Assembly (NCBI GenBank): GCA_032622095.1 | Contig: CP136062.1 | Span: forward strand, 37,634,918 to 37,698,917 | Reading direction: 5' to 3' | Source of the DNA: Siphonodentalium dalli | Taxonomy: Eukaryota > Mollusca > Scaphopoda > Gadilida > Siphonodentaliidae | Length of the DNA stretch: 64,000 nucleotides | Part shown: piece after piece, positions 653 through 64,000 of the stretch | How positions within the stretch are numbered: the first letter of the stretch is position 1 | How the letters are laid out: the number at the start of each line of letters is the position of its first letter | The notes under the pieces: model-generated | Told to the model about the DNA's origin: nothing | Database searches by the model: none | The model's input: only the letters and a program-made list of their open reading frames with translations | Made by a program: the position numbers and the translations under genes

Positions 653-689
653 GCTTACAAGGCTTGCCAATGAACTGAACATGTATTAG

Positions 690-32681: not shown

Positions 32682-32739
32682 TATCTGTATATGACACCAT
32701 ACAATATTTTATTCATATATGCATTCAAAGGCATGCATG

Positions 32740-36464: not shown

Positions 36465-39400
36465 TCTCATTTCATTGCGGTTCGTGTTAATTTACAGTTG
36501 ATGGTGGTTGGTCTCATTTAATTGCGGTTCATGTTAATTTACAGTTGATGGTGATTGGTCTCATTTAATTGCGGTTCATGTTAATTTACAGTTGATGGTG
36601 GTTGGTCTCATTTAATTGCGGTTCATGTTAATTTACAGTTGATGGTGGTTGGTCTCATTTAATTGCGGTTCATGTTAATTTACAGTTGATGGTGGTTGGT
36701 CTCATTTAATTGCGGTTCATGTTAATTTACAGTTGATGGGTTGGTCTCATTTAATTGCGGTTCATGTTAATTTACAGTTGATGGTGGTTGGTCTCATTTC
36801 ATTGCGGTTCGTGTTAATTTACAGTTGATGGTGGTTGGTCTCATTTAACTGCGGTTCATGTTAATTTACAGTTGATGGTGGTTGGTCTCATTTCATTGCG
36901 GTTCATGTTAATTGACAGTTTATGGTGGTTGGTCTCATTTAATTGCGGTTCATGTTAATTTACAGTTGATGGTGGTTGGTCTCATTTAATTGCGGTTCAT
37001 GTTAATTTACAGTTGATGGTGGTTGGTCTCATTTAATTGCGGTTCATATTAATTGACAGTTTATGGTGGTTGGTCTCATTTAATTGCGGTTCATGTTAAT
37101 TTACAGTTGATGGTGGTTGGTCTCATTTAATTGCGGTTCATGTTAATTGACAGTTTATGGTGGTTGGTCTCATTTATTTGCGGTTCATGTTAATTTACAG
37201 TTGATGGTGGTTGGTCTCATTTAATTGCGGTTCATGTTAATTTACAGTTGATGGTGGTTGGTCTCATTTAATTGCGGTTCATGTTAATTTACAGTTGATG
37301 GTGGTTGGTCTCATTTCATTGCGGTTCGTGTTAATTTACAGTTGATGGTGGTTGGTCTCATTTAATTGCGGTTCATGTTAATTTACAGTTGATGGTGGTT
37401 GGTCTCATTTCATTGCGGTTCATGTTAATTTACAGTTGATGGTGGTTGGTCTCATTTCATTGCGGTTCATGTTAATTTACAGTTGATGGTGGTTGGTCTC
37501 ATTTAATTGCGGTTCATGTTAATTTACAGTTGATGGTGGTTGGTCTCATTTAATTGCGGTTCATGTTAATTTACAGTTGATGGTGGTTGGTCTCATTTAA
37601 TTGCGGTTCATGTTAATTGACAGTTTATGGTGGTTGGTCTCATTTCATTGCGGTTCATGTTAATTTACAGTTGATGGTGGTTGGTCTCATTTAATTGCGG
37701 TTCATGTTAATTGACAGTTTATGGTGGTTGGTCTCATTTAATTGCGGTTCATGTTAATTTACAGTTGATGGTGGTTGGTCTCATTTAATTGCGGTTCATG
37801 TTAATTGACAGTTTATGGTGGTTGGTCTCATTTATTTGCGGTTCATGTTAATTTACAGTTGATGGTGGTTGGTCTCATTTAATTGCGGTTCATGTTAATT
37901 TACAGTTGATGGTTGTTGGTCTCATTTCATTGCGGTTCATGTTAATTTACAGTTGATGGTGGTTGGTCTCATTTAATTGCGGTTCATGTTAATTTACAGT
38001 TGATGGTGGTTGGTCTCATTTAATTGCGGTTCATGTTAATTTACAGTTGATGGTGGTTGATCTCATTTAATTGCGGTTCATGTTAATTGACAGTTTATGG
38101 TGGTTGGTCTCATTTCATTGCGGTTCATGTTAATTTACAGTTGATGGTGGTTGGTCTCATTTAATTGCGGTTCGTGTTAATTTACAGTTGATGGTGGTTG
38201 GTCTCATTTAATTGCGGTTCATGTTAATTTACAGTTGATGGTGGTTGGTCTCATTTAATTGCGGTTCATGTTAATTTACAGTTGATGGTGGTTGGTCTCA
38301 TTTAATTGCGGTTCGTGTTAATTTACAGTTGATAGTGGTTGGTCTCATTTCATTGCTGTTCATGTTAATTTACAGTTGATGGTGGTTGGTCTCATTTAAT
38401 TGCGGTTCGTGTTAATTGACAGTTTATGGTGGTTGGTCTCATTTCATTGCGGTTCGTGTTAATTTACAGTTGATGGTGGTTGGTCTCATTTAATTGCGGT
38501 TCATGTTAATTTACAGTTTATGGTGGTTGGTCTCATTTCATTGCGGTTCATGTTAATTTACAGTTGATGGTGGTTGGTCTCAATTAATTGCGGTTCATAT
38601 TAATTTACAGTTGATGGTGGTTGGTCTCATTTAATTGCGGTTCATGTTAATTTACAGTTGATGGTGGTTGGTCTCATTTAATTGCGGTTCATGTTAATTT
38701 ACAGTTGATGGTGGTTGGTCTCATTTAATTGCGGTTCATGTTAATTTACAGTTGATGGTGGTTGGTCTCATTTAATTGCGGTTCATGTTAATTTACAGTT
38801 GATGGTGGTTGGTCTCATTTCATTGCGGTTCGTGTTAATTTACAGTTGATGGTGGTTGGTCTCATTTCATTGCGGTTCGTGTTAATTTACAGTTGATGGT
38901 GGTTGGTCTCATTTCATTGCGGTTCGTGTTAATTTACAGTTGATGGTGGTTGGTCTCATTTCATTGCGGTTCATGTTAATTTACAGTTGATGGTGTTTGT
39001 TCTCATTTCATTGCGGTTCGTGTTTATTTACAGTTGATGGTGGTTGGTCTCATTTCATTGCGGTTCATGTTAATTTACAGTTGATGGTGGTTGGTCTCAT
39101 TTCATTGCGGTTCATGTTAATTTACAGTTGATGGTGGTTGGTCTCATTTCATTGCGGTTCGTGTTAATTTACAGTTGATGGTGGTTGGTCTCATTTCATT
39201 GCGGTTCGTGTTAATTTACAGTTGATGGTGGTTGGTCTCATTTCATTGCGGTTCATGTTAATTTACAGTTGATGGTGGTTGGTCTCATTTCATTGCGGTT
39301 CATGTTAATTTACAGTTGATGGTGGTTGGTCTCATTTCATTGGGGTTCGTGTTAATTTACAGTTGATGGTGGTTGGTCTCATTTCATTGCGGTTCGTGTT

Positions 39401-42400
39401 AATTTACAGTTGATGGTGGTTGGTCTCATTTTATTGCGATTCATGTTAATTTACAGTTGATGGTGGTTGGTCTCATTTCATTGCGGTTCATGTTAATTTA
39501 CAGTTGATGGTGGTTGGTCTCATTTCATTGCGGTTCATGTTAATTTACAGTTGATGGTGGTTGGTCTCATTTCATTGCGGTTCGTATTAATTTACAGTTG
39601 ATGGTGGTTGGTCTCATTTCATTGCGGTTCATGTTAATTTAAAGTTGATGGTGGTTGGTCTCATTTCATTGCGGTTCGTGTTAATTTACAGTTGATGGTG
39701 GTTGGTCTCATTTCATTGCGGTTCATGTTAATTTACAGTTGATGGTGGTTGGTCTCATTTCATTGCGGTTCATGTTAATTTACAGTTGATGGTGGTTGGT
39801 CTCATTTCATTGCGGTTCGTGTTAATTTACAGTTGATGGTGGTTGGTCTCATTTCATTGCGGTTCGTGTTAATTTACAGTTGATGGTGGTTGGTCTCATT
39901 TCATTGCGGTTCATGTTAATTTACAGTTGATGGTGGTTGGTCTCATTTAATTGCGGTTCATGTTAATTTACAGTTGATGGTGGTTGGTCTCATTTAATTG
40001 CGGTTCATGTTAATTTACTGTTGATTGTGGTTGGTCTCATTTCATTGCGGTTCATGTTACTTTACAGTTGATGGTGGTTGGTCTCATTTAATTGCGGTTC
40101 ATGTTAATATACAGTTGATGGTGGTTGGTCTCATTTAATTGCGGTTCATGTTAATTTACAGTTGATGGTGGTTGGTCTCATTTAATTGCGGTTCATGTTA
40201 ATTTACAGTTGATGGTGGTTGGTCTCATTTAATTGCGGTTCATGTTAATTTACAGTTGATGGTGGTTGGTCTCATTTAATTGCGGTTCATGTTAATTTAC
40301 AGTTGATGGTGGTTGGTCTCATTTAATTGCGGTTCATGTTAATTTACAGTTGATGGTGGTTGGTCTCATTTAATTGCGGTTCATGTTAATTGACAGTTTA
40401 TGGTGGTTGGTCTCATTTCATTGCGGTTCATGTTAATTTACAGTTGATGGTGGTTGGTCTCATTTAATTGCGGTTCATGTTAATTTACAGTTGATGGTGG
40501 TTGGTCTCATTTCATTGCGGTTCATGTTAATTTACAGTTGATGGTGGTTGGTCTCATTTCATTGCGGTTCATGTTAATTTACAGTTGATGGTGGTTGGTC
40601 TCATTTAATTGCGGTTCATGTTAATTTACAGTTGATGGTGGTTGGTCTCATTTAATTGCGGTTCATGTTAATTGACAGTTTATGGTGGTTGGTCTCATTT
40701 AATTGCGGTTCATGTTAATTTACAGTTGATGGTGGTTGGTCTCATTTAATTGCGGTTCATGTTAATTTACAGTTGATGGTGGTTGGTCTCATTTAATTGC
40801 GGTTCATATTAATTTACAGTTGATGGTGGTTGGTCTCATTTAATTGCGGTTCGTGTTAATTTACAGTTGATGGTGGTTGGTCTCATTTAATTGCGGTTCA
40901 TGTTAATTTACAGTTGATGGTGGTTGGTCTCATTTAATTGCGGTTCATGTTAATTTACAGTTGATGGTGGTTGATCTCATTTCATTGCGGTTCATGTTAA
41001 TTTACAGTTGATGGTGGTTGGTCTCATTTAATTGCGGTTCATGTTAATTTACAGTTGATGGTGGTTGGTCTCATTTAATTGCGGTTCATGTTAATTTACA
41101 GTTGATGGTGGTTGGTCTCATTTAATTGCGGTTCATGTTAATTTACAGTTGATGGTGGTTGGTCTCATTTCATTGCGGTTCGTGTTAATTTACAGTTGAT
41201 GGTGGTTGGTCTCATTTAATTGCGGTTCATGTTAATATACAGTTGATGGTGGTTGATCTCATTTCATTGCGGTTCATGTTAATTTACAGTTGATGGTGGT
41301 TGGTCTCATTTAATTGCGGTTCATGTTAATTTACAGTTTATGGTGGTTGGTCTCATTTAATTGCGGTTCATGTTAATTTACAGTTTATGGTGGTTGGTCT
41401 CATTTAATTGCGGTTCATGTTAATTTACAGTTGATGGTGGTTGATCTCATTTCATTGCGGTTCATGTTAATTTACAGTTGATGGTGGTTGGTCTCATTTA
41501 ATTGCGGTTCATGTTAATTTACAGTTGATGGTGGTTGGTCTCATTTAATTGCGGTTCATGTTAATTTACAGTTGATGGTGGTTGGTCTCATTTAATTGCG
41601 GTTCATGTTAATTTACAGTTGATGGTGGTTGGTCTCATTTAATTGCGGTTCATGTTAATTTACAGTTGATGGTGGTTGGTCTCATTTCATTTCGGTTCAT
41701 GTTAATTTACAGTTGATTGTGGTTGGTCTCATTTCATTGCGGTTCGTGTTAATTTACAGTTGATGGTGGTTGGTCTCATTTAATTGCGGTTCATGTTAAT
41801 TTACACTTGATGGTGGTTGGTCTCATTTAATTGCGGTTCATGTTAATTTACAGTTGATGGTGGTTGGTCTCATTTAATTGCGGTTCATGTTAATTTACAG
41901 TTGATGGTGGTTGGTCTCATTTAATTGCGGTTCATGTTAATTTACAGTTGATGGTGGTTGGTCTCATTTAATTGCGGTTCATGTTAATTTACAGTTGATG
42001 GTGGTTGGTCTCATTTCATTGCGGTTCGTGTTAATTTACAGTTGATGGTGGTTGGTCTCATTTAATTGCGGTTCATGTTAATATACAGTTGATGGTGGTT
42101 GATCTCATTTCATTGCGGTTCATGTTAATTTACAGTTGATGGTGGTTGGTCTCATTTAATTGCGGTTCATGTTAATTTACAGTTTATGGTGGTTGGTCTC
42201 ATTTAATTGCGGTTCATGTTAATTTACAGTTTATGGTGGTTGGTCTCATTTAATTGCGGTTCATGTTAATTTACAGTTGATGGTGGTTGATCTCATTTCA
42301 TTGCGGTTCATGTTAATTTACAGTTGATGGTGGTTGGTCTCATTTAATTGCGGTTCATGTTAATTTACAGTTGATGGTGGTTGGTCTCATTTAATTGCGG

Positions 42401-43329
42401 TTCATGTTAATTTACAGTTGATGGTGATTGGTCTCATTTAATTGCGGTTCATGTTAATTTACAGTTGATGGTGGTTGGTCTCATTTAATTGCGGTTCATG
42501 TTAATTTACAGTTGATGGTGGTTGGTCTCATTTAATTGCGGTTCGTGTTAATTTACAGTTGATGGTGGTTGGTCTCATTTAATTGCGGTTCATGTTAATT
42601 TACAGTTGATGGTGGTTGGTCTCATTTAATTGCGGTTCATGTTAATTTACAGTTGATGGTGGTTGGTCTCATTTAATTGCGGTTCATGTTAATTTACAGT
42701 TGATGGTGGTTGGTCTCATTTCATTGCGGTTCATGTTAATTTGCAGTTGATGGTGGTTGGTCTCATTTAATTGCGGTTCATGTTAATTTACAGTTGATGG
42801 TGGTTGGTCTCATTTAATTGCGGTTCATGTTAATTTACAGTTGATGGTGGTTGGTCTCATTTAATTGCGGTTCATGTTAATTTACAGTTGATGGTGGTTG
42901 GTCTCATTTAATTGCTGTTCAAGTTAATTTACAGTTGATGGTGGTTGGTCTCATTTCATTGCGGTTCGTGTTAATTTACAGTTGATTGTGGTTGGTCTCA
43001 TTTCATTGCGGTTCGTGTTAATTTACAGTTGATGGTGGTTGGTCTCATTTAATTGCGGTTCATGTTAATTTACAGTTGATGGTGGTTGGTCTCATTTCAT
43101 TTCGGTTCATGTTAATTTACAGTTGATTGTGGTTGGTCTCATTTCATTGCGGTTCGTGTTAATTTACAGTTGATGGTGGTTGGTCTCATTTAATTGCGGT
43201 TCATGTTAATTTACAGTTGATGGTGGTTGGTCTCATTTAATTGCTGTTCATGTTAATTTACAGTTGATGGTGGTTGGTCTCATTTAATTGCGGTTCATGT
43301 TAATTTACAGTTGATGGTGGTTGGTCTCA
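36465..43329. repeat. 47-bp splice-acceptor minisatellite, array 1 (146 copies)
   Basis: The unit runs from TCTCATTTAATTGCGG through GTTAATTTACAG/TTGATGG to GGTTGG. 43325 minus 36465 is 6860, that is 146 x 47 less two bases, which are missing from one unit near 36738. Each unit holds the 3' splice site and first 19 bases of the TSP1 exon; the last 19 bases of the array are the real start of exon 4. Common variants are TTTCATT for TTTAATT, TTCGTG for TTCATG and GACAGTTTATGG. Two units lose the acceptor AG (40019, 41805). Confidence 0.98.
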
Positions 43330-43478
43330 GTGGAACGACGGTGTGTGCAGTACAACGTGCGGCTTAGGGAGGCAGACTCGAACCAGAACGTGCACTCATC
43401 CGACTCCGGCATCCGGCGGGAAAACATGCCCCGATTCCAACACAGATGTGGCGCTATGCGAACAACCAGCGTGTCCAG
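43311..43478 (+). CDS. TSP1 domain exon 3 (gene exon 4)
   Basis: 168 bp, phase 1 at both ends, acceptor TTTACAG and donor GTACCA. Complete six-cysteine TSP1 repeat (WSQW, GVCSTTCG, GRQTRTRTC, GGKTC, ALCE, ACPG). Identical in DNA to the exons at 45573 and 48117. Its first 19 bases are the last copy of the 47-bp array. Choosing an acceptor one unit upstream would add 47 bases, shift the frame and reach a stop 57 bases into the normal exon, so only the terminal acceptor keeps the domain. Confidence 0.87.
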
Positions 43479-44130
43479 GTACCACACTTACATTCGAACC
43501 GCCTTTAGTATGCACGTCCGCCTCACGTGTCCAGGTACCACACCTACATTCGAACCGCCTTTAGTATGCACGTCTGCCTCACGGCTGGCTCCTTCTACAT
43601 ATATAACAGATTTATCTCTATATGTATTTAAACTAAAAGGAGAACAGATATAGTGATATATATAGCGTTTAAGGTCCCATAAAAATGCGTCATAAAGCGT
43701 GTGGTTAAGTGTGACTTTATAAGTGCCCATTTGAAGTACCCGTTTACCTGGTTCTGCTGACATATTCTTGTATTGTGTGTTGGGCGCTGATGATACTATT
43801 GAGTCCTTGGGGGAATTTTAAACACTTTTATTTAAAAAAAAGGAAAAAAAAGGAGAAAAAAAAATTCAGTCTGGAAGAGAAATGTACCGGTAAATCAATT
43901 TGTTGATACAGTCAGTATAATCAAAACAGTCACAACACCTAGATTTTGAATATGTGAGCGCGGTAACAAAATGATGTTCGCCCCCTTATGATTCATATTT
44001 GTTCAATGTGTATGACTATCTATCATTGCTGAAACGAGCCATCTACATCTAGTTATACCACGTTAATGTCCGCACCTCTCGATAAATCATACGAACTGGA
44101 CGTTTTAGAGACACCAAAAGTTTACACGAA
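43479..44130. repeat. TSP1-unit spacer, copy 2
   Basis: Same as 35814-36464 with only a handful of differences (for example AGATTTAT for AGTTTTAT, and A-run lengths). Second donor at 43534/43535. Exon start to array start is exactly 820 bp here and in the next three copies. Confidence 0.93.
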
Positions 44131-45591
44131 TCTCATTTCATTGCGGTTCATGTTAATTTACAGTTGATGGTGGTTGGTCTCATTTAATTGCGGTTCATGT
44201 TAATTTACAGTTGATGGTGGTTGGTCTCATTTCATTGCGGTTCATGTTAATTTACAGTTTATGGTGGTTGGTCTCATTTAATTGCGGTTCATGTTAATTT
44301 ACAGTTGATGGTGGTTGGTCTCATTTAATTGCGGTTCATGTTAATTTACAGTTGATGGTGGTTGGTCTCATTTAATTGCGGTTCATGTTAATTACAGTTG
44401 ATGGTGGTTGGTCTCATTTAATTGCGGTTCATGTTAATTTACAGTTGATGGTGGTTGGTCTCATTTAATTGCGGTTCATGTTAATTTACAGTTGATGGTG
44501 GTTGGTCTCATTTAATTGCGGTTCATGTTAATTTACAGTTGATGGTGATTGGTCTCATTTAATTGCGGTTCATGTTAATTTACAGTTGATGGTGGTTGGT
44601 CTCATTTAATTGCGGTTCATGTTAATTTACAGTTGATGGTGGTTGGTCTCATTTAATTGCGGTTCGTGTTAATTTACAGTTGATGGTGGTTGGTCTCATT
44701 TAATTGCGGTTCATGTTAATTTACAGTTGATGGTGGTTGGTCTCATTTAATTGCGGTTCATGTTAATTTACAGTTGATGGTGGTTGGTCTCATTTAATTG
44801 CGGTTCACGTTAATTTACAGTTGATGGTGGTTGGTCTCATTTCATTGCGGTTCATGTTAATTTGCAGTTGATGGTGGTTGGTCTCATTTAATTGCGGTTC
44901 ATGTTAATTTACAGTTGATGGTGGTTGGTCTCATTTAATTGCGGTTCATGTTAATTTACAGTTGATGGTGGTTGGTCTCATTTAATTGCGGTTCATGTTA
45001 ATTTACAGTTGATGGTGGTTGGTCTCATTTAATTGCGGTTCATGTTAATTTACAGTTGATGGTGGTTGGTCTCATTTAATTGCGGTTCATGTTAATTTAC
45101 AGTTGATGGTGGTTGGTCTCATTTAATTGCGGTTCATGTTAATTTACAGTTGATGGTGGTTGGTCTCATTTAATTGCTGTTCATGTTAATTTACAGTTGA
45201 TGGTGGTTGGTCTCATTTCATTGCGGTTCGTGTTAATTTACAGTTGATTGTGGTTGGTCTCATTTCATTGCGGTTCGTGTTAATTTACAGTTGATGGTGG
45301 TTGGTCTCATTTAATTGCGGTTCATGTTAATTTACAGTTGATGGTGGTTGGTCTCATTTCATTTCGGTTCATGTTAATTTACAGTTGATTGTGGTTGGTC
45401 TCATTTCATTGCGGTTCGTGTTAATTTACAGTTGATGGTGGTTGGTCTCATTTAATTGCGGTTCATGTTAATTTACAGTTGATGGTGGTTGGTCTCATTT
45501 AATTGCGGTTCATGTTAATTTACAGTTGATGGTGGTTGGTCTCATTTAATTGCGGTTCATGTTAATTTACAGTTGATGGTGGTTGGTCTCA
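44131..45591. repeat. 47-bp splice-acceptor minisatellite, array 2 (31 copies)
   Basis: 1456 bp from TCTCA to TCTCA equals 31 x 47 less one; the short unit is TTAATTACAG near 44393. The order of variants in the first units (TTTATGG in the third unit, 46-bp unit sixth) is the same as in arrays 3 and 5, showing that these arrays descend from one template. Confidence 0.97.
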
Positions 45592-45740
45592 GTGGAACGA
45601 CGGTGTGTGCAGTACAACGTGCGGCTTAGGGAGGCAGACTCGAACCAGAACGTGCACTCATCCGACTCCGGCATCCGGCGGGAAAACATGCCCCGATTCC
45701 AACACAGATGTGGCGCTATGCGAACAACCAGCGTGTCCAG
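45573..45740 (+). CDS. TSP1 domain exon 4 (gene exon 5)
   Basis: DNA-identical to the exon at 43311: a 168-bp, phase 1-1, six-cysteine TSP1 repeat with acceptor TTTACAG and donor GTACCA. Complete identity with the neighbouring copies means a very recent duplication or continuing gene conversion. It sits 2262 bp after the previous exon start. Confidence 0.86.
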
Positions 45741-46392
45741 GTACCACACTTACATTCGAACCGCCTTTAGTATGCACGTCCGCCTCACGTGTCCAGGTAC
45801 CACACCTACATTCGAACTGCCTTTAGTATGCACGTCTGCCTCACGGCTGGCTCCTTCTACATATATAACAGTTTTATCTCTATATGTATTTAAACTAAAA
45901 GGAGAACAGATATAGTGATATATATAGCGTTTAAGGTCCCATAAAAATGCGTCATAAAGCGTGTGGTTAAGTGTGACTTTATAAGTGCCCATTTGAAGTA
46001 CCCGTTTACCTGGTTCTGCTGACATATTCTTGTATTGTGTGTTGGGCGCTGATGATACTATTGAGTCCTTGGGGGAATTTTAAACACTTTTATTTAAAAA
46101 AAAGGAAAAAAAAGGAGAAAAAAAAATTCAGTCTGGAAGAGAAATGTACCGGTAAATCAATTTGTTGATACAGTCAGTATAATCAAAACAGTCACAACAC
46201 CTAGATTTTGAATATGTGAGCGCGGTAACAAAATGATGTTCGCCCCCTTATGATTCATATTTGTTCAATGTGTATGACTATCTATCAATGCTGAAACGAG
46301 CCATCTACATCTAGTTATACCACGTTAATGTCCGCACCTCTCGATAAATCATACGAACTGGACGTTTTAGAGACACCAAAAGTTTACACGAA
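45741..46392. repeat. TSP1-unit spacer, copy 3
   Basis: As copy 2, second donor at 45796/45797. It carries GAACTGCC for GAACCGCC in the second 56-bp repeat, a change shared with copy 4 only. Confidence 0.93.
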
Positions 46393-48135
46393 TCTCATTT
46401 CATTGCGGTTCATGTTAATTTACAGTTGATGGTGGTTGGTCTCATTTAATTGCGGTTCATGTTAATTTACAGTTGATGGTGGTTGGTCTCATTTCATTGC
46501 GGTTCATGTTAATTTACAGTTTATGGTGGTTGGTCTCATTTAATTGCGGTTCATGTTAATTTACAGTTGATGGTGGTTGGTCTCATTTAATTGCAGTTCA
46601 TGTTAATTTACAGTTGATGGTGGTTGGTCTCATTTAATTGCGGTTCATGTTAATTACAGTTGATGGTGGTTGGTCTCATTTAATTGCGGTTCATGTTAAT
46701 TTACAGTTGATGGTGGTTGGTCTCATTTAATTGCGGTTCATGTTAATTTACAGTTGATGGTGGTTGGTCTCATTTAATTGCGGTTCATGTTAATTTACAG
46801 TTGATGGTGATTGGTCTCATTTAATTGCGGTTCATGTTAATTTACAGTTGATGGTGGTTGGTCTCATTTAATTGCGGTTCATGTTAATTTACAGTTGATG
46901 GTGGTTGGTCTCATTTAATTGCGGTTCGTGTTAATTTACAGTTGATGGTGGTTGGTCTCATTTAATTGCGGTTCATGTTAATTTACAGTTGATGGTGGTT
47001 GGTCTCATTTAATTGCGGTTCATGTTAATTTACAGTTGATGGTGGTTGGTCTCATTTAATTGCGGTTCATGTTAATTTACAGTTGATGGTGGTTGGTCTC
47101 ATTTCATTGCGGTTCATGTTAATTTGCAGTTGATGGTGGTTGGTCTCATTTAATTGCGGTTCATGTTAATTTACAGTTGATGGTGGTTGGTCTCATTTAA
47201 TTGCGGTTCATGTTAATTTACAGTTGATGGTGGTTGGTCTCATTTAATTGCGGTTCATGTTAATTTACAGTTGATGGTGGTTGGTCTCATTTCATTGCGG
47301 TTCGTGTTAATTTACAGTTGATGGTGATTGGTCTCATTTAATTGCGGTTCATGTTAATTTACAGTTGATGGTGGTTGGTCTCATTTAATTGCGGTTCATG
47401 TTAATTTACAGTTGATGGTGGTTGGTCTCATTTAATTGCGGTTCGTGTTAATTTACAGTTGATGGTGGTTGGTCTCATTTAATTGCGGTTCATGTTAATT
47501 TACAGTTGATGGTGGTTGGTCTCATTTAATTGCGGTTCACGTTAATTTACAGTTGATGGTGGTTGGTCTCATTTCATTGCGGTTCATGTTAATTTGCAGT
47601 TGATGGTGGTTGGTCTCATTTAATTGCGGTTCATGTTAATTTACAGTTGATGGTGGTTGGTCTCATTTAATTGCGGTTCATGTTAATTTACAGTTGATGG
47701 TGGTTGGTCTCATTTAATTGCTGTTCATGTTAATTTACAGTTGATGGTGGTTGGTCTCATTTCATTGCGGTTCGTGTTAATTTACAGTTGATTGTGGTTG
47801 GTCTCATTTCATTGCGGTTCGTGTTAATTTACAGTTGATGGTGGTTGGTCTCATTTAATTGCGGTTCATGTTAATTTACAGTTGATGGTGGTTGGTCTCA
47901 TTTCATTTCGGTTCTTGTTAATTTACAGTTGATTGTGGTTGGTCTCATTTCATTGCGGTTCGTGTTAATTTACAGTTGATGGTGGTTGGTCTCATTTAAT
48001 TGCGGTTCATGTTAATTTACAGTTGATGGTGGTTGGTCTCATTTAATTGCGGTTCATGTTAATTTACAGTTGATGGTGGTTGGTCTCATTTAATTGCGGT
48101 TCATGTTAATTTACAGTTGATGGTGGTTGGTCTCA
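46393..48135. repeat. 47-bp splice-acceptor minisatellite, array 3 (37 copies)
   Basis: 1738 bp from TCTCA to TCTCA equals 37 x 47 less one, with the one-base-short unit near 46655 at the same rank as in array 2. Array 3 resembles array 2 with about six extra units in the middle. Confidence 0.97.
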
Positions 48136-48284
48136 GTGGAACGACGGTGTGTGCAGTACAACGTGCGGCTTAGGGAGGCAGACTCGAACCAGAACGTGCA
48201 CTCATCCGACTCCGGCATCCGGCGGGAAAACATGCCCCGATTCCAACACAGATGTGGCGCTATGCGAACAACCAGCGTGTCCAG
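48117..48284 (+). CDS. TSP1 domain exon 5 (gene exon 6)
   Basis: DNA-identical to the exons at 43311 and 45573. Complete six-cysteine TSP1 repeat, 168 bp, phase 1 at both ends. It is followed by the longest intron of the window (12106 bp), of which about 95% is minisatellite. Confidence 0.86.
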
Positions 48285-51900: not shown

Positions 51901-54900
51901 CATTTCATTGCGGTTCATGTTAATTTACAGTTGATGGTGGTTGGTCTCATTTCATTGCGGTTCGTATTAATTTACAGTTGATGGTGGTTGGTCTCATTTC
52001 ATTGCGGTTCATGTTAATTTAAAGTTGATGGTGGTTGGTCTCATTTCATTGCGGTTCGTGTTAATTTACAGTTGATGGTGGTTGGTCTCATTTCATTGCG
52101 GTTCATGTTAATTTACAGTTGATGGTGGTTGGTCTCATTTCATTGCGGTTCATGTTAATTTACAGTTGATGGTGGTTGGTCTCATTTCATTGCGGTTCGT
52201 GTTAATTTACAGTTGATGGTGGTTGGTCTCATTTCATTGCGGTTCGTGTTAATTTACAGTTGATGGTGGTTGGTCTCATTTCATTGCGGTTCATGTTAAT
52301 TTACAGTTGATGGTGGTTGGTCTCATTTAATTGCGGTTCATGTTAATTTACAGTTGATGGTGGTTGGTCTCATTTAATTGCGGTTCATGTTAATTTACAG
52401 TTGATTGTGGTTGGTCTCATTTCATTGCGGTTCATGTTACTTTACAGTTGATGGTGGTTGGTCTCATTTAATTGCGGTTCATGTTAATTTACAGTTGATG
52501 GTGGTTGGTCTCATTTAATTGCGGTTCATGTTAATTTACAGTTGATGGTGGTTGGTCTCATTTAATTGCGGTTCATGTTAATTTACAGTTGATGGTGGTT
52601 GGTCTCATTTAATTGCGGTTCATGTTAATTTAGAGTTGATGGTGGTTGGTCTCATTTAATTGCGGTTCATGTTAATTTACAGTTGATGGTGGTTGGTCTC
52701 ATTTAATTGCGGTTCATGTTAATTTACAGTTGATGGTGGTTGGTCTCATTTAATTGCGGTTCATGTTAATTGACAGTTTATGGTGGTTGGTCTCATTTCA
52801 TTGCGGTTCATGTTAATTTACAGTTGATGGTGGTTGGTCTCATTTAATTGCGGTTCATGTTAATTTACAGTTGATGGTGGTTGGTCTCATTTCATTGCGG
52901 TTCATGTTAATTTACAGTTGATGGTGGTTGGTCTCATTTCATTGCGGTTCATGTTAATTTACAGTTGATGGTGGTTGGTCTCATTTAATTGCGGTTCATG
53001 TTAATTTACAGTTGATGGTGGTTGGTCTCATTTAATTGCGGTTCATGTTAATTGACAGTTTATGGTGGTTGGTCTCATTTAATTGCGGTTCATGTTAATT
53101 TACAGTTGATGGTGGTTGGTCTCATTTAATTGCGGTTCATGTTAATTTACAGTTGATGGTGGTTGGTCTCATTTAATTGCGGTTCATATTAATTTACAGT
53201 TGATGGTGGTTGGTCTCATTTAATTGCGGTTCGTGTTAATTTACAGTTGATGGTGGTTGGTCTCATTTAATTGCGGTTCATGTTAATTTACAGTTGATGG
53301 TGGTTGGTCTCATTTAATTGCGGTTCATGTTAATTTACAGTTGATGGTGGTTGATCTCATTTCATTGCGGTTCATGTTAATTTACAGTTGATGGTGGTTG
53401 GTCTCATTTAATTGCGGTTCATGTTAATTTACAGTTGATGGTGGTTGGTCTCATTTAATTGCGGTTCATGTTAATCTACAGTTGATGGTGGTTGGTCTCA
53501 TTTAATTGCGGTTCATGTTAATTTACAGTTGATGGTGGTTGGTCTCATTTCATTGCGGTTCGTGTTAATTTACAGTTGATGGTGGTTGGTCTCATTTAAT
53601 TGCGGTTCATGTTAATTTACAGTTGATGGTGGTTGATCTCATTTCATTGCGGTTCATGTTAATTTACAGTTGATGGTGGTTGGTCTCATTTAATTGCGGT
53701 TCATGTTAATTTACAGTTTATGGTTGTTGGTCTCATTTAATTGCGGTTCATGTTAATTTACAGTTTATGGTGGTTGGTCTCATTTAATTGCGGTTCATGT
53801 TAATTTACAGTTGATGGTGGTTGATCTCATTTCATTGCGGTTCATGTTAATTTACAGTTGATGGTGGTTGGTCTCATTTAATTGCGGTTCATGTTAATTT
53901 ACAGTTGATGGTGGTTGGTCTCATTTAATTGCGGTTCATGTTAATTTACAGTTGATGGTGATTGGTCTCATTTAATTGCGGTTCATGTTAATTTACAGTT
54001 GATGGTGGTTGGTCTCATTTAATTGCGGTTCATGTTAATTTACAGTTGATGGTGGTTGGTCTCATTTAATTGCGGTTCGTGTTAATTTACAGTTGATGGT
54101 GGTTGGTCTCATTTAATTGCGGTTCATGTTAATTTACAGTTGATGGTGGTTGGTCTCATTTAATTGCGGTTCATGTTAATTTACAGTTGATGGTGGTTGG
54201 TCTCATTTAATTGCGGTTCATGTTAATTTACAGTTGATGGTGGTTGGTCTCATTTCATTGCGGTTCATGTTAATTTAAAGTTGATGGTGGTTGGTCTCAT
54301 TTCATTGCGGTTCATGTTAATTTACAGTTGATGGTGGTTGGTCTCATTTAATTGCGGTTCATGTTAATTTACAGTTGATGGTGGTTGGTCTCATTTAATT
54401 GCGGTTCATATTAATTTACAGTTGATGGTGGTTGGTCTCATTTAATTGCGGTTCGTGTTAATTTACAGTTGATGGTGGTTGGTCTCATTTAATTGCGGTT
54501 CATGTTAATTTACAGTTGATGGTGGTTGGTCTCATTTAATTGCGGTTCATGTTAATTTACAGTTGATGGTGGTTGATCTCATTTCATTGCGGTTCATGTT
54601 AATTTACAGTTGATGGTGGTTGGTCTCATTTCATTGCGGTTCATGTTAATTTACAGTTGATGGTGGTTGGTCTCATTTAATTGCGGTTCATGTTAATCTA
54701 CAGTTGATGGTGGTTGGTCTCATTTAATTGCGGTTCATGTTAATTTACAGTTGATGATGGTTGGTCTCATTTCATTGCGGTTCGTGTTAATTTACAGTTG
54801 ATGGTGGTTGGTCTCATTTAATTGCGGTTCATGTTAATTTACAGTTGATGGTGGTTGATCTCATTTCATTGCGGTTCATGTTAATTTACAGTTGATGGTG

Positions 54901-57900
54901 GTTGGTCTCATTTAATTGCGGTTCATGTTAATTTACAGTTTATGGTGGTTGGTCTCATTTAATTGCGGTTCATGTTAATTTACAGTTTATGGTGGTTGGT
55001 CTCATTTAATTGCGGTTCATGTTAATTTACAGTTGATGGTGGTTGATCTCATTTCATTGCGGTTCATGTTAATTTACAGTTGATGGTGTTTGGTCTCATT
55101 TAATTGCGGTTCATGTTAATTTACAGTTGATGGTGGTTGGTCTCATTTAATTGCGGTTCATGTTAATTTACAGTTGATGGTGATTGGTCTCATTTAATTG
55201 CGGTTCATGTTAATTTAAAGTTGATGGTGGTTGGTCTCATTTAATTGCGGTTCATGTTAATTTACAGTTGATGGTGGTTGGTCTCATTTAATTGCGGTTC
55301 GTGTTAATTTACAGTTGATGGTGGTTGGTCTCATTTAATTGCGGTTCATGTTAATTTACAGTTGATGGTGGTTGGTCTCATTTAATTGCGGTTCATGTTA
55401 ATTTACAGTTGATGGTGGTTGGTCTCATTTAATTGCGGTTCATGTTAATTTACAGTTGATGGTGGTTGGTCTCATTTCATTGCGGTTCATGTTAATTTAA
55501 AGTTGATGGTGGTTGGTCTCATTTCATTGCGGTTCGTGTTAATTTACAGTTGATGGTGGTTGGTCTCATTTCATTGCGGTTCATGTTAATTTACAGTTGA
55601 TGGTGGTTGGTCTCATTTCATTGCGGTTCATGTTAATTTACAGTTGATGGTGGTTGGTCTCATTTCATTGCGGTTCGTGTTAATTTACAGTTGATGGTGG
55701 TTGGTCTCATTTCATTGCGGTTCGTGTTAATTTACAGTTGATGGTGGTTGGTCTCATTTCATTGCGGTTCATGTTAATTTACAGTTGATGGTGGTTGGTC
55801 TCATTTAATTGCGGTTCATGTTAATTTACAGTTGATGGTGGTTGGTCTCATTTAATTGCGGTTCATGTTAATTTACAGTTGATTGTGGTTGGTCTCATTT
55901 CATTGCGGTTCATGTTACTTTACAGTTGATGGTGGTTGGTCTCATTTAATTGCGGTTCATGTTAATTTACAGTTGATGGTGGTTGGTCTCATTTAATTGC
56001 GGTTCATGTTAATTTACAGTTGATGGTGGTTGGTCTCATTTAATTGCGGTTCATGTTAATTTACAGTTGATGGTGGTTGGTCTCATTTAATTGCGGTTCA
56101 TGTTAATTTACAGTTGATGGTGGTTGGTCTCATTTAATTGCGGTTCATGTTAATTGACAGTTTATGGTGGTTGGTCTCATTTCATTGCGGTTCATGTTAA
56201 TTTACAGTTGATGGTGGTTGGTCTCATTTAATTGCGGTTCATGTTAATTTACAGTTGATGGTGGTTGGTCTCATTTCATTGCGGTTCATGTTAATTTACA
56301 GTTGATGGTGGTTGGTCTCATTTCATTGCGGTTCATGTTAATTTACAGTTGATGGTGGTTGGTCTCATTTAATTGCGGTTCATGTTAATTTACAGTTGAT
56401 GGTGGTTGGTCTCATTTAATTGCGGTTCATGTTAATTGACAGTTTATGGTGGTTGGTCTCATTTAATTGCGGTTCATGTTAATTTACAGTTGATGGTGGT
56501 TGGTCTCATTTAATTGCGGTTCATGTTAATTTACAGTTGATGGTGGTTGGTCTCATTTAATTGCGGTTCATGTTAATTTACAGTTGATGGTGGTTGGTCT
56601 CATTTAATTGCGGTTCGTGTTAATTTAGAGTTGATGGTGGTTGGTCTCATTTAATTGCGGTTCATGTTAATTTACAGTTGATGGTGGTTGGTCTCATTTA
56701 ATTGCGGTTCATGTTAATTTACAGTTGATGGTGGTTGATCTCATTTCATTGCGGTTCATGTTAATTTACAGTTGATGGTGGTTGGTCTCATTTAATTGCG
56801 GTTCATGTTAATTTACAGTTGATGGTGGTTGGTCTCATTTAATTGCGGTTCATGTTAATTTACAGTTGATGGTGGTTGGTCTCATTTAATTGCGGTTCAT
56901 GTTAGTTTACAGTTGATGGTGGTTGGTCTCATTTCATTGCGGTTCGTGTTAATTTACAGTTGATGGTGGTTGGTCTCATTTAATTGCGGTTCATGTTAAT
57001 TTACAGTTGATGGTGGTTGGTCTCATTTAATTGCGGTTCATGTTAATTTACAGTTTATGGTGGTTGGTCTCATTTAATTGCGGTTCATGTTAATTTACAG
57101 TTTATGGTGGTTGGTCTCATTTAATTGCGGTTCATGTTAATTTACAGTTGATGGTGGTTGATCTCATTTCATTGCGGTTCATGTTAATTTACAGTTGATG
57201 GTGGTTGGTCTCATTTAATTGCGGTTCATGTTAATTTACAGTTGATGGTGGTTGGTCTCATTTAATTGCGGTTCATGTTAATTTACAGTTGATGGTGATT
57301 GGTCTCATTTAATTGCGGTTCATGTTAATTTACAGTTGATGGTGGTTGGTCTCATTTAATTGCGGTTCATGTTAATTTACAGTTGATGGTGGTTGGTCTC
57401 ATTTAATTGCGGTTCGTGTTAATTTACAGTTGATGGTGGTTGGTCTCATTTAATTGCGGTTCATGTTAATTTACAGTTGATGGTGGTTGGTCTCATTTAA
57501 TTGCGGTTCATGTTAATTTACAGTTGATGGTGGTTGGTCTCATTTAATTGCGGTTCATGTTAATTTACAGTTGATGGTGGTTGGTCTCATTTCATTGCGG
57601 TTCATGTTAATTTGCAGTTGATGGTGGTTGGTCTCATTTAATTGCGGTTCATGTTAATTTACAGTTGATGGTGGTTGGTCTCATTTAATTGCGGTTCATG
57701 TTAATTTACAGTTGATGGTGGTTGGTCTCATTTAATTGCGGTTCATGTTAATTTACAGTTGATGGTGATTGGTCTCATTTAATTGCGGTTCATGTTAATT
57801 TACAGTTGATGGTGGTTGGTCTCATTTAATTGCGGTTCATGTTAATTTACAGTTGATGGTGGTTGGTCTCATTTAATTGCGGTTCGTGTTAATTTACAGT

Positions 57901-60409
57901 TGATGGTGGTTGGTCTCATTTAATTGCGGTTCATGTTAATTTACAGTTGATGGTGGTTGGTCTCATTTAATTGCGGTTCATGTTAATTTACAGTTGATGG
58001 TGGTTGGTCTCATTTAATTGCGGTTCATGTTAATTTACAGTTGATGGTGGTTGGTCTCATTTCATTGCGGTTCATGTTAATTTGCAGTTGATGGTGGTTG
58101 GTCTCATTTAATTGCGGTTCATGTTAATTTACAGTTGATGGTGGTTGGTCTCATTTAATTGCGGTTCATGTTAATTTACAGTTGATGGTGGTTGGTCTCA
58201 TTTAATTGCGGTTCATGTTAATTTACAGTTGATGGTGGTTGGTCTCATTTAATTGCGGTTCATGTTAATTTACAGTTGATGGTGGTTGGTCTCATTTAAT
58301 TGCGGTTCATGTTAATTTACAGTTGATGGTGGTTGGTCTCATTTAATTGCGGTTCGTGTTAATTTAGAGTTGATGGTGGTTGGTCTCATTTAATTGCGGT
58401 TCATGTTAATTTACAGTTGATGGTGGTTGGTCTCATTTAATTGCGGTTCATGTTAATTTACAGTTGATGGTGGTTGATCTCATTTCATTGCGGTTCATGT
58501 TAATTTACAGTTGATGGTGGTTGGTCTCATTTAATTGCGGTTCATGTTAATTTACAGTTGATGGTGGTTGGTCTCATTTAATTGCGGTTCATGTTAATTT
58601 ACAGTTGATGGTGGTTGGTCTCATTTAATTGCGGTTCATGTTAGTTTACAGTTGATGGTGGTTGGTCTCATTTCATTGCGGTTCGTGTTAATTTACAGTT
58701 GATGGTGGTTGGTCTCATTTAATTGCGGTTCATGTTAATTTACAGTTGATGGTGGTTGGTCTCATTTAATTGCGGTTCATGTTAATTTACAGTTTATGGT
58801 GGTTGGTCTCATTTAATTGCGGTTCATGTTAATTTACAGTTTATGGTGGTTGGTCTCATTTAATTGCGGTTCATGTTAATTTACAGTTGATGGTGGTTGA
58901 TCTCATTTCATTGCGGTTCATGTTAATTTACAGTTGATGGTGGTTGGTCTCATTTAATTGCGGTTCATGTTAATTTACAGTTGATGGTGGTTGGTCTCAT
59001 TTAATTGCGGTTCATGTTAATTTACAGTTGATGGTGATTGGTCTCATTTAATTGCGGTTCATGTTAATTTACAGTTGATGGTGGTTGGTCTCATTTAATT
59101 GCGGTTCATGTTAATTTACAGTTGATGGTGGTTGGTCTCATTTAATTGCGGTTCGTGTTAATTTACAGTTGATGGTGGTTGGTCTCATTTAATTGCGGTT
59201 CATGTTAATTTACAGTTGATGGTGGTTGGTCTCATTTAATTGCGGTTCATGTTAATTTACAGTTGATGGTGGTTGGTCTCATTTAATTGCGGTTCATGTT
59301 AATTTACAGTTGATGGTGGTTGGTCTCATTTCATTGCGGTTCATGTTAATTTGCAGTTGATGGTGGTTGGTCTCATTTAATTGCGGTTCATGTTAATTTA
59401 CAGTTGATGGTGGTTGGTCTCATTTAATTGCGGTTCATGTTAATTTACAGTTGATGGTGGTTGGTCTCATTTAATTGCGGTTCATGTTAATTTACAGTTG
59501 ATGGTGATTGGTCTCATTTAATTGCGGTTCATGTTAATTTACAGTTGATGGTGGTTGGTCTCATTTAATTGCGGTTCATGTTAATTTACAGTTGATGGTG
59601 GTTGGTCTCATTTAATTGCGGTTCGTGTTAATTTACAGTTGATGGTGGTTGGTCTCATTTAATTGCGGTTCATGTTAATTTACAGTTGATGGTGGTTGGT
59701 CTCATTTAATTGCGGTTCATGTTAATTTACAGTTGATGGTGGTTGGTCTCATTTAATTGCGGTTCATGTTAATTTACAGTTGATGGTGGTTGGTCTCATT
59801 TCATTGCGGTTCATGTTAATTTGCAGTTGATGGTGGTTGGTCTCATTTAATTGCGGTTCATGTTAATTTACAGTTGATGGTGGTTGGTCTCATTTAATTG
59901 CGGTTCATGTTAATTTACAGTTGATGGTGGTTGGTCTCATTTAATTGCGGTTCATGTTAATTTACAGTTGATGGTGGTTGGTCTCATTTAATTGCGGTTC
60001 ATGTTAATTTACAGTTGATGGTGGTTGGTCTCATTTAATTGCGGTTCATGTTAATTTACAGTTGATGGTGGTTGGTCTCATTTAATTGCGGTTCATGTTA
60101 ATTTACAGTTGATGGTGGTTGGTCTCATTTAATTGCTGTTCAAGTTAATTTACAGTTGATGGTGGTTGGTCTCATTTCATTGCGGTTCGTGTTAATTTAC
60201 AGTTGATTGTGGTTGGTCTCATTTCATTGCGGTTCGTGTTAATTTACAGTTGATGGTGGTTGGTCTCATTTAATTGCGGTTCATGTTAATTTACAGTTGA
60301 TGGTGGTTGGTCTCATTTCATTTCGGTTCATGTTAATTTACAGTTGATGGTGGTTGGTCTCATTTAATTGCGGTTCATGTTAATTTACAGTTGATGGTGG
60401 TTGGTCTCA
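48937..60409. repeat. 47-bp splice-acceptor minisatellite, array 4 (244 copies)
   Basis: 60405 minus 48937 is 11468, exactly 244 x 47, so there is no net length change over 11.5 kb. Blocks of variant units repeat inside it: the rare TGTTACTTTACAG unit at about 52434 and 55912 lies exactly 74 units apart and also occurs in array 1 (40054) and array 5 (63672). Start and end variants match array 1 (GGTGATTGG as second unit; CTGTTCAAGTTAA near the end), so arrays 1 and 4 share ancestry. Confidence 0.98.
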
Positions 60410-60558
60410 GTGGAACGACGGTGGGTGCAGTACAACGTGCGGCTTAGGGAGGCAGACTCGAACCAGAACGTGCACTCATCCGACTCCGGCATCCGGCGGG
60501 AAAACATGCCCCGATTCCAACACAGATGTGGCGCTATGCGAACAACCAGCGTGTCCAG
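60391..60558 (+). CDS. TSP1 domain exon 6 (gene exon 7)
   Basis: 168 bp, phase 1 at both ends, six-cysteine TSP1 repeat. It differs from the exons at 43311, 45573 and 48117 by a single base (GGG for GTG before the first Cys, giving Gly as in exon 3). It is the last exon in the window; the following intron is cut by the window end, so the gene is incomplete here. Confidence 0.86.
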
Positions 60559-61210
60559 GTACCACACTTACATTCGAACCGCCTTTAGTATGCACGTCCG
60601 CCTCACGTGTCCAGGTACCACACCTACATTCGAACCGCCTTTAGTATGCACGTCTGCCTCACGGCTGGCTCCTTCTACCTATATAACAGTTTTATCTCTA
60701 TATGTATTTAAACTAAAAGGAGAACAGATATAGTGATATATATAGCGTTTAAGGTCCCATAAAAATGCGTCATAAAGCGTGTGGTTAAGTGTGACTTTAT
60801 AAGTGCCCATTTGAAGTACCCGTTTACCTGGTTCTGCTGACATATTCTTGTATTGTGTGTTGGGCGCTGATGATACTATTGAGTCCTTGGGGGAATTTTA
60901 AACACTTTTATTTAAAAAAAAGGAAAAAAAAGGAGAAAAAAAAATTCAGTCTGGAAGAGAAATGTACCGGTAAATCAATTTGTTGATACAGTCAGTATAA
61001 TCAAAACAGTCACAACACCTAGATTTTGAATATGTGAGCGCGGTAACAAAATGATGTTCGCCCCCTTATGATTCATATTTGTTCAATGTGTATGACTATC
61101 TATCATTGCTGAAACGAGCCATCTACATCTAGTTATACCACGTTAATGTCCGCACCTCTCGATAAATCATACGAACTGGACGTTTTAGAGACACCAAAAG
61201 TTTACACGAA
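60559..61210. repeat. TSP1-unit spacer, copy 5
   Basis: As the other spacers (second donor at 60614/60615; CTACCTATATAAC for CTACATATATAAC). Confidence 0.93.
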
Positions 61211-64000
61211 TCTCATTTCATTGCGGTTCATGTTAATTTACAGTTGATGGTGGTTGGTCTCATTTAATTGCGGTTCATGTTAATTTACAGTTGATGGTGG
61301 TTGGTCTCATTTCATTGCGGTTCATGTTAATTTACAGTTTATGGTGGTTGGTCTCATTTAATTGCGGTTCATGTTAATTTACAGTTGATGGTGGTTGGTC
61401 TCATTTAATTGCGGTTCATGTTAATTTACAGTTGATGGTGGTTGGTCTCATTTAATTGCGGTTCATGTTAATTACAGTTGATGGTGGTTGGTCTCATTTA
61501 ATTGCGGTTCATGTTAATTTACAGTTGATGGTGGTTGGTCTCATTTAATTGCGGTTCATGTTAATTTACAGTTGATGGTGGTTGGTCTCATTTAATTGCG
61601 GTTCATGTTAATTTACAGTTGATGGTGGTTGGTCTCATTTAATTGCGGTTCATGTTAATTACAGTTGATGGTGGTTGGTCTCATTTAATTGCGGTTCATG
61701 TTAATTTACAGTTGATGGTGGTTGGTCTCATTTAATTGCGGTTCATGTTAATTTACAGTTGATGGTGGTTGGTCTCATTTCATTGCGGTTCATGTTAATT
61801 TACAGTTGATGGTGGTTGGTCTCATTTAATTGCGGTTCATGTTAATTTACAGTTGATGGTGGTTGGTCTCATTTAATTGCGGTTCGTGTTAATTTACAGT
61901 TGATGGTGGTTGGTCTCATTTCATTGCTGTTCATGTTAATTTACAATTGATGGTGGTTGGTCTCATTTAATTGCGGTTCGTGTTAATTGACAGTTTATGG
62001 TGGTTGGTCTCATTTCATTGCGGTTCGTGTTAATTTACAGTTGATGGTGGTTGGTCTCATTTAATTGCGGTTCATGTTAATTTACAGTTTATGGTGGTTG
62101 GTCTCATTTCATTGCGGTTCATGTTAATTTACAGTTGATGGTGGTTGGTCTCATTTAATTGCGGTTCATATTAATTTACAGTTGATGGTGGTTGGTCTCA
62201 TTTAATTGCGGTTCATGTTAATTTACAGTTGATGGTGGTTGGTCTCATTTAATTGCGGTTCATGTTAATTTACAGTTGATGGTGGTTGGTCTCATTTAAT
62301 TGCGGTTCATGTTAATTTACAGTTGATGGTGGTTGGTCTCATTTAATTGCGGTTCATGTTAATTTACAGTTGATGGTGGTTGGTCTCATTTCATTGCGGT
62401 TCGTGTTAATTTACAGTTGATGGTGGGTGGTCTCATTTCATTGCGGTTCGTGTTAATTTACAGTTGATGGTGGTTGGTCTCATTTCATTGCGGTTCGTGT
62501 TAATTTACAGTTGATGGTGGTTGGTCTCATTTCATTGCGGTTCATGTTAATTTACAGTTGATGGTGGTTGGTCTCATTTCATTGCGGTTCGTGTTAATTT
62601 ACAGTTGATGGTGGTTGGTCTCATTTCATTGCGGTTCATGTTAATTTACAGTTGATGGTGGTTGGTCTCATTTCATTGCGGTTCATGTTAATTTACAGTT
62701 GATGGTGGTTGGTCTCATTTCATTGCGGTTCGTGTTAATTTACAGTTGATGGTGGTTGGTCTCATTTCATTGCGGTTCGTGTTAATTTACAGTTGATGGT
62801 GGTTGGTCTCATTTCATTGCGGTTCATGTTAATTTACAGTTGATGGTGGTTGGTCTCATTTCATTGCGGTTCATGTTAATTTACAGTTGATGGTGGTTGG
62901 TCTCATTTCATTGCGGTTCATGTTAATTTACAGTTGATGGTGGTTGGTCTCATTTCATTGCGGTTCGTGTTAATTTGCAGTTGATGGTGGTTGGTCTCAT
63001 TTCATTGCGGTTCGTGTTAATTTACAGTTGATGGTGGTTGGTCTCATTTCATTGCGGTTCATGTTAATTTACAGTTGATGGTGGTTGGTCTCATTTCATT
63101 GCGGTTCATGTTAATTTACAGTTGATGGTGGTTGGTCTCATTTCATTGCGGTTCATGTTAATTTACAGTTGATGGTGGTTGGTCTCATTTCATTGCGGTT
63201 CGTGTTAATTTACAGTTGATGGTGGTTGGTCTCATTTCATTGCGGTTCATGTTAATTTAAAGTTGATGGTGGTTGGTCTCATTTCATTGCGGTTCGTGTT
63301 AATTTACAGTTGATGGTGGTTGGTCTCATTTCATTGCGGTTCATGTTAATTTACAGTTGATGGTGGTTGGTCTCATTTCATTGCGGTTCATGTTAATTTA
63401 CAGTTGATGGTGGTTGGTCTCATTTCATTGCGGTTCGTGTTAATTTACAGTTGATGGTGGTTGGTCTCATTTCATTGCGGTTCGTGTTAATTTACAGTTG
63501 ATGGTGGTTGGTCTCATTTCATTGCGGTTCATGTTAATTTACAGTTGATGGTGGTTGGTCTCATTTAATTGCGGTTCATGTTAATTTACAGTTGATGGTG
63601 GTTGGTCTCATTTAATTGCGGTTCATGTTAATTTACAGTTGATTGTGGTTGGTCTCATTTCATTGCGGTTCATGTTACTTTACAGTTGATGGTGGTTGGT
63701 CTCATTTAATTGCGGTTCATGTTAATTTACAGTTGATGGTGGTTGGTCTCATTTAATTGCGGTTCATGTTAATTTACAGTTGATGGTGGTTGGTCTCATT
63801 TAATTGCGGTTCATGTTAATTTACAGTTGATGGTGGTTGGTCTCATTTAATTGCGGTTCATGTTAATTTACAGTTGATGGTGGTTGGTCTCATTTAATTG
63901 CGGTTCATGTTAATTTACAGTTGATGGTGGTTGGTCTCATTTAATTGCGGTTCATGTTAATTTACAGTTGATGGTGGTTGGTCTCATGTAATTGCGGTTC
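61211..64000. repeat. 47-bp splice-acceptor minisatellite, array 5 (at least 59 copies, cut by window end)
   Basis: 2790 bp of the same unit, still running at the window edge. Two 46-bp units occur (near 61473 and 61660), the first at the same rank as in arrays 2 and 3. One unit loses the acceptor AG (61945). An 11th-to-24th-unit stretch matches the 50.6-51.1 kb part of array 4 in variant order. Confidence 0.97.

Follow-up and report, generated by a model that had tools for sequence, protein, structure and literature searches.

Splice-junction arrays in the window

We analyzed a 64,000-nucleotide stretch of the Siphonodentalium dalli genome (hereafter the window; C2:37634918-37698917 of a 2.2-Gb assembly in nine contigs), which holds a gene with successive TSP1 exons and, running into several of them, tandem arrays of a 47-bp minisatellite that carries the exon's own splice acceptor. 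The TSP1 exon product matched Pfam TSP_1 (PF00090) with 42.9 bits against a cut-off of 21.6, and the gene family is TSP1-rich and recently duplicated and looks secreted. The features of the gene are as follows.

32136..32408, + strand: first exon found, apparent signal peptide and spacer without a Pfam match (open reading frame, tblastn)
33587..33754, + strand: TSP1 exon 1, without array (tblastn, Pfam TSP_1)
35093..35121, + strand: detached initial 29 bp of the unit, about 520 bp from the AG part at exon 2 (segmentation)
35646..35813, + strand: TSP1 exon 2, array-free, acceptor ATTGGTTTTCGTGTTTACAG
35805..35918, + strand: 56-bp direct duplication across the donor of TSP1 exon 2
36465..43329, + strand: array 1, 146 units, 144 with AG (Tandem Repeats Finder, segmentation)
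43311..43478, + strand: TSP1 exon at the end of array 1 (tblastn, Pfam TSP_1)
43470..43583, + strand: 56-bp donor duplication after the array-1 exon
44131..45591, + strand: array 2, 31 units, AG in all (Tandem Repeats Finder, segmentation)
45573..45740, + strand: TSP1 exon at the end of array 2 (tblastn)
45732..45845, + strand: 56-bp donor duplication after the array-2 exon
46393..48135, + strand: array 3, 37 units, AG in all (Tandem Repeats Finder, segmentation)
48117..48284, + strand: TSP1 exon at the end of array 3 (tblastn)
48276..48389, + strand: 56-bp donor duplication after the array-3 exon
48937..60409, + strand: array 4, 244 units, AG in all (Tandem Repeats Finder, segmentation)
60391..60558, + strand: TSP1 exon at the end of array 4 (tblastn)
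60550..60663, + strand: 56-bp donor duplication after the array-4 exon
61211..64000, + strand: array 5, 59 full units within the window (segmentation; same limits from Tandem Repeats Finder)

The unit reads TCTCATTTAATTGCGGTTCATGTTAATTTACAG followed by TTGATGGTGGTTGG and consists of the last 33 nt of the intron and the first 14 nt of the TSP1 exon; each unit would bring its own 3' splice site. The motif CTCAT, 28 nt before the end of the unit's AG, is what we take to be a candidate branch site. Arrays 1 to 4 each pass without interruption into a TSP1 exon that contains no stop, measures 168 bp (56 codons, phase 1-1) and has the donor CCAG/GTACCA, and both the segmentation and the reading of the exons confirmed the initial annotation, which had described the unit as intron end plus exon start and the first four arrays as running into intact exons. 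The arrays are thus not ordinary intronic minisatellites, since 14 exon bases lie inside the unit and the array continues into the exon.

Our own segmentation gave 146, 31, 37, 244 and 59 full units, 517 in total with 61 distinct sequences, the same copy numbers as had been proposed, and the fifth array, previously put at 59 copies or more, reaches 184 units (183 with AG) beyond the window before it ends at C2:37704776 and meets an intact TSP1 exon. The acceptor AG is intact in 514 of the 517 window units. The three losses seen earlier by eye were exactly the three that we found (units starting at 39988, 41774 and 61914), and the AG counts of the segmentation concur.

Distribution of the arrays in the genome

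An exact search with a 39-base junction pattern yielded 863 matches in the 2.2-Gb genome and none for the same pattern read backward. All 863 are confined to four related TSP1 loci.

Locus A, C2:37.56-37.59 Mb, forward: 118 exact matches; arrays of 194, 3, 10, 10, 4 and 4 units
Locus B, the window gene, forward: 378 exact matches; arrays of 146, 31, 37, 244 and 184 units
Locus C, C2:39.02-39.05 Mb, reverse: 164 exact matches; arrays of 33, 16, 8, 16 and 417 units
Locus D, C2:39.28-39.32 Mb, reverse: 203 exact matches; arrays of 8, 16 and 473 units

By two-state segmentation, the four loci have 19 arrays with a total of at least 1,854 units (1,841 of them with AG; longest array, 473 units), a count that omits three lone or partial units and about 3.1 kb further upstream in locus D with 16 exact matches. 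Over all loci, 220 distinct units were found. Thirteen arrays reach an intact TSP1 exon (six in A, five in B and one each in C and D), and the six others, all in C and D, end in exon remnants; locus A also has one single unit ahead of a truncated exon. The arrays in four successive introns that had been noted at first are therefore present, but the phenomenon is not limited to them, as it extends to 13 intact exons in four loci and to two genes on another contig described below. A dispersed satellite or a transposon-borne repeat was rejected because all exact matches sit in the four loci, the exact pattern being blind to diverged unit copies elsewhere in the genome.

Loci C and D lie 262 kb apart and show 99.93% identity over the 4.5 kb that begin at the exon, which could reflect a recent duplication or two alleles placed twice. 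The TSP1 exon family is very large genome-wide: 1583 first-look candidates were obtained, 150 were scored and at least 151 matches were counted.

The acceptor in related genes and a second junction array

The position of the acceptor is supported by the related exons, because in 58 of 59 further TSP1 exons of the genome an AG stands directly before the same codon. None of these 59 junctions has a second junction copy within about 330 bp upstream, the best partial match being 22 of 34 bases. Among 16 nearer relatives, 14 have no tandem repeat across the junction, and two (L017 and L019) have arrays of their own. One relative, L016, has the same intron end as the arrays, once (TCTCATTTCATTGTGGTTCGTGTTAATTTTAAG), beside a TSP1 exon whose copy reads TCTCG; L052 and L053 resemble it, with the intron end present once.

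We scored acceptors with a matrix from 72 single-copy family acceptors, leaving out L086, which has no AG, and the pair L017/L019. The array acceptor reached 28.1, a score that is raised because the matrix includes close relatives sharing its intron end; the leave-one-out median was 21.5. In the part of an array intron that is free of units, a further 31 AGs scored 0.4 or less. On the donor side, the best donor-like GT of the unit scored -3.6 against 16.1 for the real donor; scoring of the unit GTs thus found no in-unit donors of the kind needed for recursive splicing or micro-exons.

The arrays of L017 and L019 belong to two TSP1 genes on contig C4 (289.02 and 291.57 Mb; L017, L019 and L071), where the same TSP1 acceptor is spanned by a different array, with a repeat length of 48 bp. 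The unit comprises about 11 intron and 37 exon bases (TTAACTTACAG/TTGACGGGGGATGG...) and is without the CTCAT branch-site candidate. Both arrays, with 12 and 6 acceptors, are bordered by GTGT on both sides (by eye) and end in an intact TSP1 exon. They look like one origin, because both contain the same 62-bp variant unit. A spaced junction-pair pattern whose first copy carries GAC matched only at the C4 places and in loci C and D, and not at all when read backward. The C4 array is independent of the 47-bp array, and junction arrays have thus arisen at least twice in this genome.

Reading frame and selection on the exons

To follow the consequence of each possible choice, we translated from every intact-AG acceptor to the end of the TSP1 exon, excluding the six arrays of C and D that meet no exon. 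Loci A and B contributed 864 sites from 11 exon-meeting arrays, and the 11 terminal ones were open while all 853 others hit a stop. The two long C and D arrays gave 883 sites (2 terminal open, 881 stopped) and the C4 arrays 18 (2 open, 16 stopped). In total, none of 1,750 nonterminal intact acceptors leaves the exon open and all 15 terminal ones do, which bears out the earlier proposal that only the last acceptor restores the frame.

The TSP1 exons are under purifying selection. The pooled ratio of nonsynonymous to synonymous differences per site (pN/pS) was 0.25 among the 10 distinct sequences of the subfamily (15 exons, two of them array-free), a value that pools nonindependent pairs and includes two array-free sequences (A8872 and B35646). 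Against 15 relatives it was 0.31 for the subfamily exons, L016 being excluded as it has no full exon. A pN/pS of 0.25 is not the pattern of unused exons, and this constraint suggests that the terminal acceptor is probably in use, at least often.

This constraint bears on two other explanations. The array-bearing genes might be dying or unexpressed, so that their splicing would be irrelevant, and the broken modules of C and D, where six arrays run into exon remnants, as well as the single unit before a truncated exon in A, accord with such decay. We consider this very unlikely, however, given the 13 intact, stop-free exons beside arrays and their low pN/pS. Alternatively, the array might weaken recognition of the exon, and the 168-bp phase 1-1 exons might be dispensable cassettes that are skipped harmlessly; all 13 array-bearing intact exons are symmetrical and the number of TSP1 exons differs between genes A and B, as this would predict. 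Constant skipping, though, would maintain neither the open frames nor a pN/pS of 0.25 and would not explain the constraint on the exons, so that we regard skipping as unlikely as a general account; partial skipping is possible.

We further compared the decoy AGs with the rest of the unit. The AG is altered in 13 of 1,852 full units, and against 46 neighboring column pairs it ranks 9th lowest by change frequency and 18th by single-step events; across column pairs, selection keeping the decoy AGs was not clearly found. This result is relevant to the idea that internal acceptors are partly used, leading to nonsense-mediated decay, and that array length tunes expression. Such regulated decoys would be in keeping with an array acceptor score above the median of the 72 single-copy acceptors, with an AG kept in 1,841 of 1,854 array units, and with the early stop that follows from all 1,750 nonterminal choices tested. 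However, the AG columns do not clearly exceed the others in conservation, no donor-like GT stands beside the decoys, and array length varies between loci with near-identical flanks (417 versus 473 units in C and D, 194 versus 184 in A and B; the comparison is between loci of a single assembly and not between known alleles), which makes regulated decoys quite unlikely. Because the decoy AGs are without clear extra conservation, we read the arrays as tolerated rather than selected. The effect on splicing timing or transcript diversity that the initial annotation had raised thus found no support, nonterminal acceptors leading to stops and decoy AGs not being clearly conserved; the neutral reading that it also offered is the better fit, with TSP1 copy number likely to be affected as a by-product.

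The donor side of the exons is repeated on a smaller scale. A 56-bp duplication across the donor was found at 12 of the 15 subfamily exons (five in A, five in B and one each in C and D), usually as two copies and once, in locus A (32675-32900), as four. All five window duplications have the exact donor motif in each of their two copies, and in locus A three of the four copies have it. In the module tested, the second donor copy is intact and shifts the frame, and the first copy, which gives the shortest exon, is the frame-keeping one. The second donor copy of one module, combined with the terminal acceptor of the last exon, yields a stop.

Proposed origin, homogenization and probable module turnover

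All 13 exon-meeting arrays start at (G or A)AA/TCTCATTT and end 5 bp into a further unit (TCTCA/GTGG), and are thereby bounded by the 5-bp direct repeat TCTCA. These borders are the footprint expected from duplication between 5-bp direct repeats. Judging from this anatomy, the single-copy state would have been a 47-bp block starting with TCTCA and followed directly by the next TCTCA; misalignment between the two repeats would have doubled it, and growth to 3 to 473 copies would have followed by unequal exchange or replication slippage. In genes A and B, the second TSP1 exon is array-free, and in its intron the TCTCA part lies about 520 bp from the AG part, so that the two repeats are no longer close. 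This state fits the duplication model and probably goes back to a single event common to A and B.

The near-identity of the units is better explained by homogenization, because the arrays have long runs of identical units in common. These runs reach 24 units between A and B arrays and 31 between the main arrays of C and D, compared with 4 to 6 after shuffling of those pairs. With five shuffles per pair, the observed run exceeded all five in 17 of the 18 listed pairs, the exception being B arrays 2 and 4, whose 8-unit run lies within its shuffles. Runs of at least 8 units are shared only within A/B or within C/D.

These patterns also bear on the possibility of an assembly artifact, with arrays made too long or loci duplicated. 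The 99.93% identity of the C and D flanks, which could be two alleles, would suit such an artifact. Yet 61 distinct units occur in the window and 220 overall, the array stretches contain no N, the array borders are identical in four loci, and the long common runs respect the A/B and C/D pairs; we hold an artifact to be highly improbable.

Between A and B, identity is 99.86% over the run's final exon and its flank, and the modules there number one in A and five in B. Blocks B2 to B5 are 99.5 to 99.8% identical to one another, and another five modules with small arrays lie about 10 kb downstream in locus A and are about 90% identical to those of B. By exchange between the arrays of neighboring introns, a gene would acquire or lose one complete TSP1 exon in frame. 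Since homologous arrays lie in successive introns and the exons are symmetrical (phase 1-1), modules could be gained or lost without a break in the frame, and the arrays probably also drive the gain and loss of whole TSP1 modules.

Probable choice of the last acceptor

The best explanation, to which we give a probability of about two in three, is that the arrays are a splice-junction minisatellite resembling the amphioxus mirages discussed below, born between TCTCA repeats, that the terminal acceptor is used and the arrays are tolerated, and that turnover of TSP1 modules probably follows. Splicing would use the terminal acceptor because it alone has a donor (CAG/GTACCA) 168 nt downstream with an exon body between, and internal acceptors would never become part of a defined exon, since the units have no donor-like GT. 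Under exon definition, an acceptor is passed over when no donor follows it at exon distance, and the lack of donors in the units is what such a model predicts. The terminal unit itself matches the consensus perfectly in each of the 11 arrays of A and B that meet an exon, and is one base off in C and D. Many internal units agree with it from the candidate branch site onward, exon bases included, and the mark that distinguishes it would therefore lie downstream, in the exon body and the donor at +168.

Several points weigh against this explanation, besides the limits of the pN/pS and acceptor score values given above. We infer the use of the terminal acceptor from open frames and exon selection. 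The penultimate units are only 47 to 94 nt from the terminal one, so that exon definition alone offers no clear separation, and the last few units are serious rivals to the terminal acceptor. The donor is also duplicated, by 56 bp. The acceptor of the array-free exon 2 of the window gene scores only 10.9. Because the exons are symmetrical, skipping is possible, and the decoys may be weakly conserved, given the AG rank of 9 among 46. Regarding the origin, the TCTCA repeat is perfect only in arrays, the L016 exon reading TCTCG and the single unit of locus A TCTAA, and a direct single-copy ancestor was not seen. As to module turnover, the differences between A and B and between C and D could be losses as well as gains, and C and D could be alleles placed twice by the assembly.

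Relation to known systems

The initial annotation knew of no such minisatellite on this scale, but the kind is represented by the amphioxus "mirages". According to PMC3087553, mirages are minisatellite-like duplications of intron-exon boundaries in Adh3 (for which Canestro 2002 is cited) and in the globin genes BflGb6 and BflGb9; many repeats carry AG/GT, either exon end is affected, the length is variable, and regular splicing is reported to be undisturbed. Adh3 mirage units measure 10 to 72 bp, and the BflGb6 mirage has 6 and 3 units of 150 to 160 bp each in two haplotypes (PMC3087553). The present arrays share with them tandem units that span the exon-intron boundary, here by comparison with relatives, and that carry splice signals. 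Unlike the mirages described there, they consist of 47-bp units, up to 473 in one array and at least 1,854 in total, before 13 intact exons and with a second independent origin in the family.

Multiplication of donors in a minisatellite has reportedly been found in gene 6-16 by Turri, with repeats that are said to be short. What would be this case is named by a title in the reference list of PMC2572611, as a minisatellite with multiple donors in an interferon-induced human transcript. Judging from the title, the gene's own splice site is multiplied there as in the arrays here, but here it is the acceptor that is multiplied, the donor showing only the 56-bp duplication in two copies (up to four in locus A). 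In human segmental duplicates, internal tandem repeats occur at exon-intron boundaries, and a survey found 27 intron modifications (PMC2812944); like the arrays here, these are boundary repeats in recently duplicated genes and able to change introns, but the text available of that survey reports no hundreds-fold acceptor arrays. Another report links a nematode minisatellite to alternative splicing (PMC4039745). No acceptor array of hundreds of units was found in the literature searched, and it is on this search that we call such arrays not in print at this scale. Thus, the principle is known from mirages, and what is new is the scale, the complete acceptor in each unit, the fact that such arrays recur in a single gene family and the natural test that they offer of exon definition.

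The choice of a 3' splice site is usually studied with few competing sites in a test construct. The introns described here have up to about 470 near-identical acceptors, and the correct one is transcribed last, at the greatest distance from the upstream donor. Faithful use of the terminal acceptor would mean that these introns are not governed mainly by a first-come or first-AG rule but by recognition of the exon as a whole. Furthermore, the loci form a series of 3 to 473 copies beside intact exons, together with array-free relatives, along which fidelity can be plotted against copy number. Intron minisatellites may also be linked to the evolution of domain number, each module being an in-frame TSP1 exon between arrays. 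Tentatively, and with somewhat more doubt than belief, we propose that junction minisatellites are a recurrent class of mutation in the TSP1 family, which would be born from short homology at exon edges, be ignored by the spliceosome without a nearby donor even at several hundred copies, and feed module gain and loss.

Other minisatellites

Ten other TSP1 introns have minisatellites of about 39 bp that stop 12 to 21 bp before the exon. These resemble the 47-bp arrays in gene family, intron position and unit length, but they exclude the acceptor AG. They belong to another TSP1 subfamily (L036, L039, L040, L045, L055, L056, L060, L061, L063 and L066) and have fewer than one AG per unit. Within the window, a 53-bp minisatellite of 65 copies lies at 21523-24954, and its minus strand shows TTTTTTATTCCTCTCCCCGACAG, a strong acceptor-like sequence, in each unit of the stretch read. 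In addition, a 383-bp tandem repeat of 8.6 copies with 84% matches occupies positions 689-3975.

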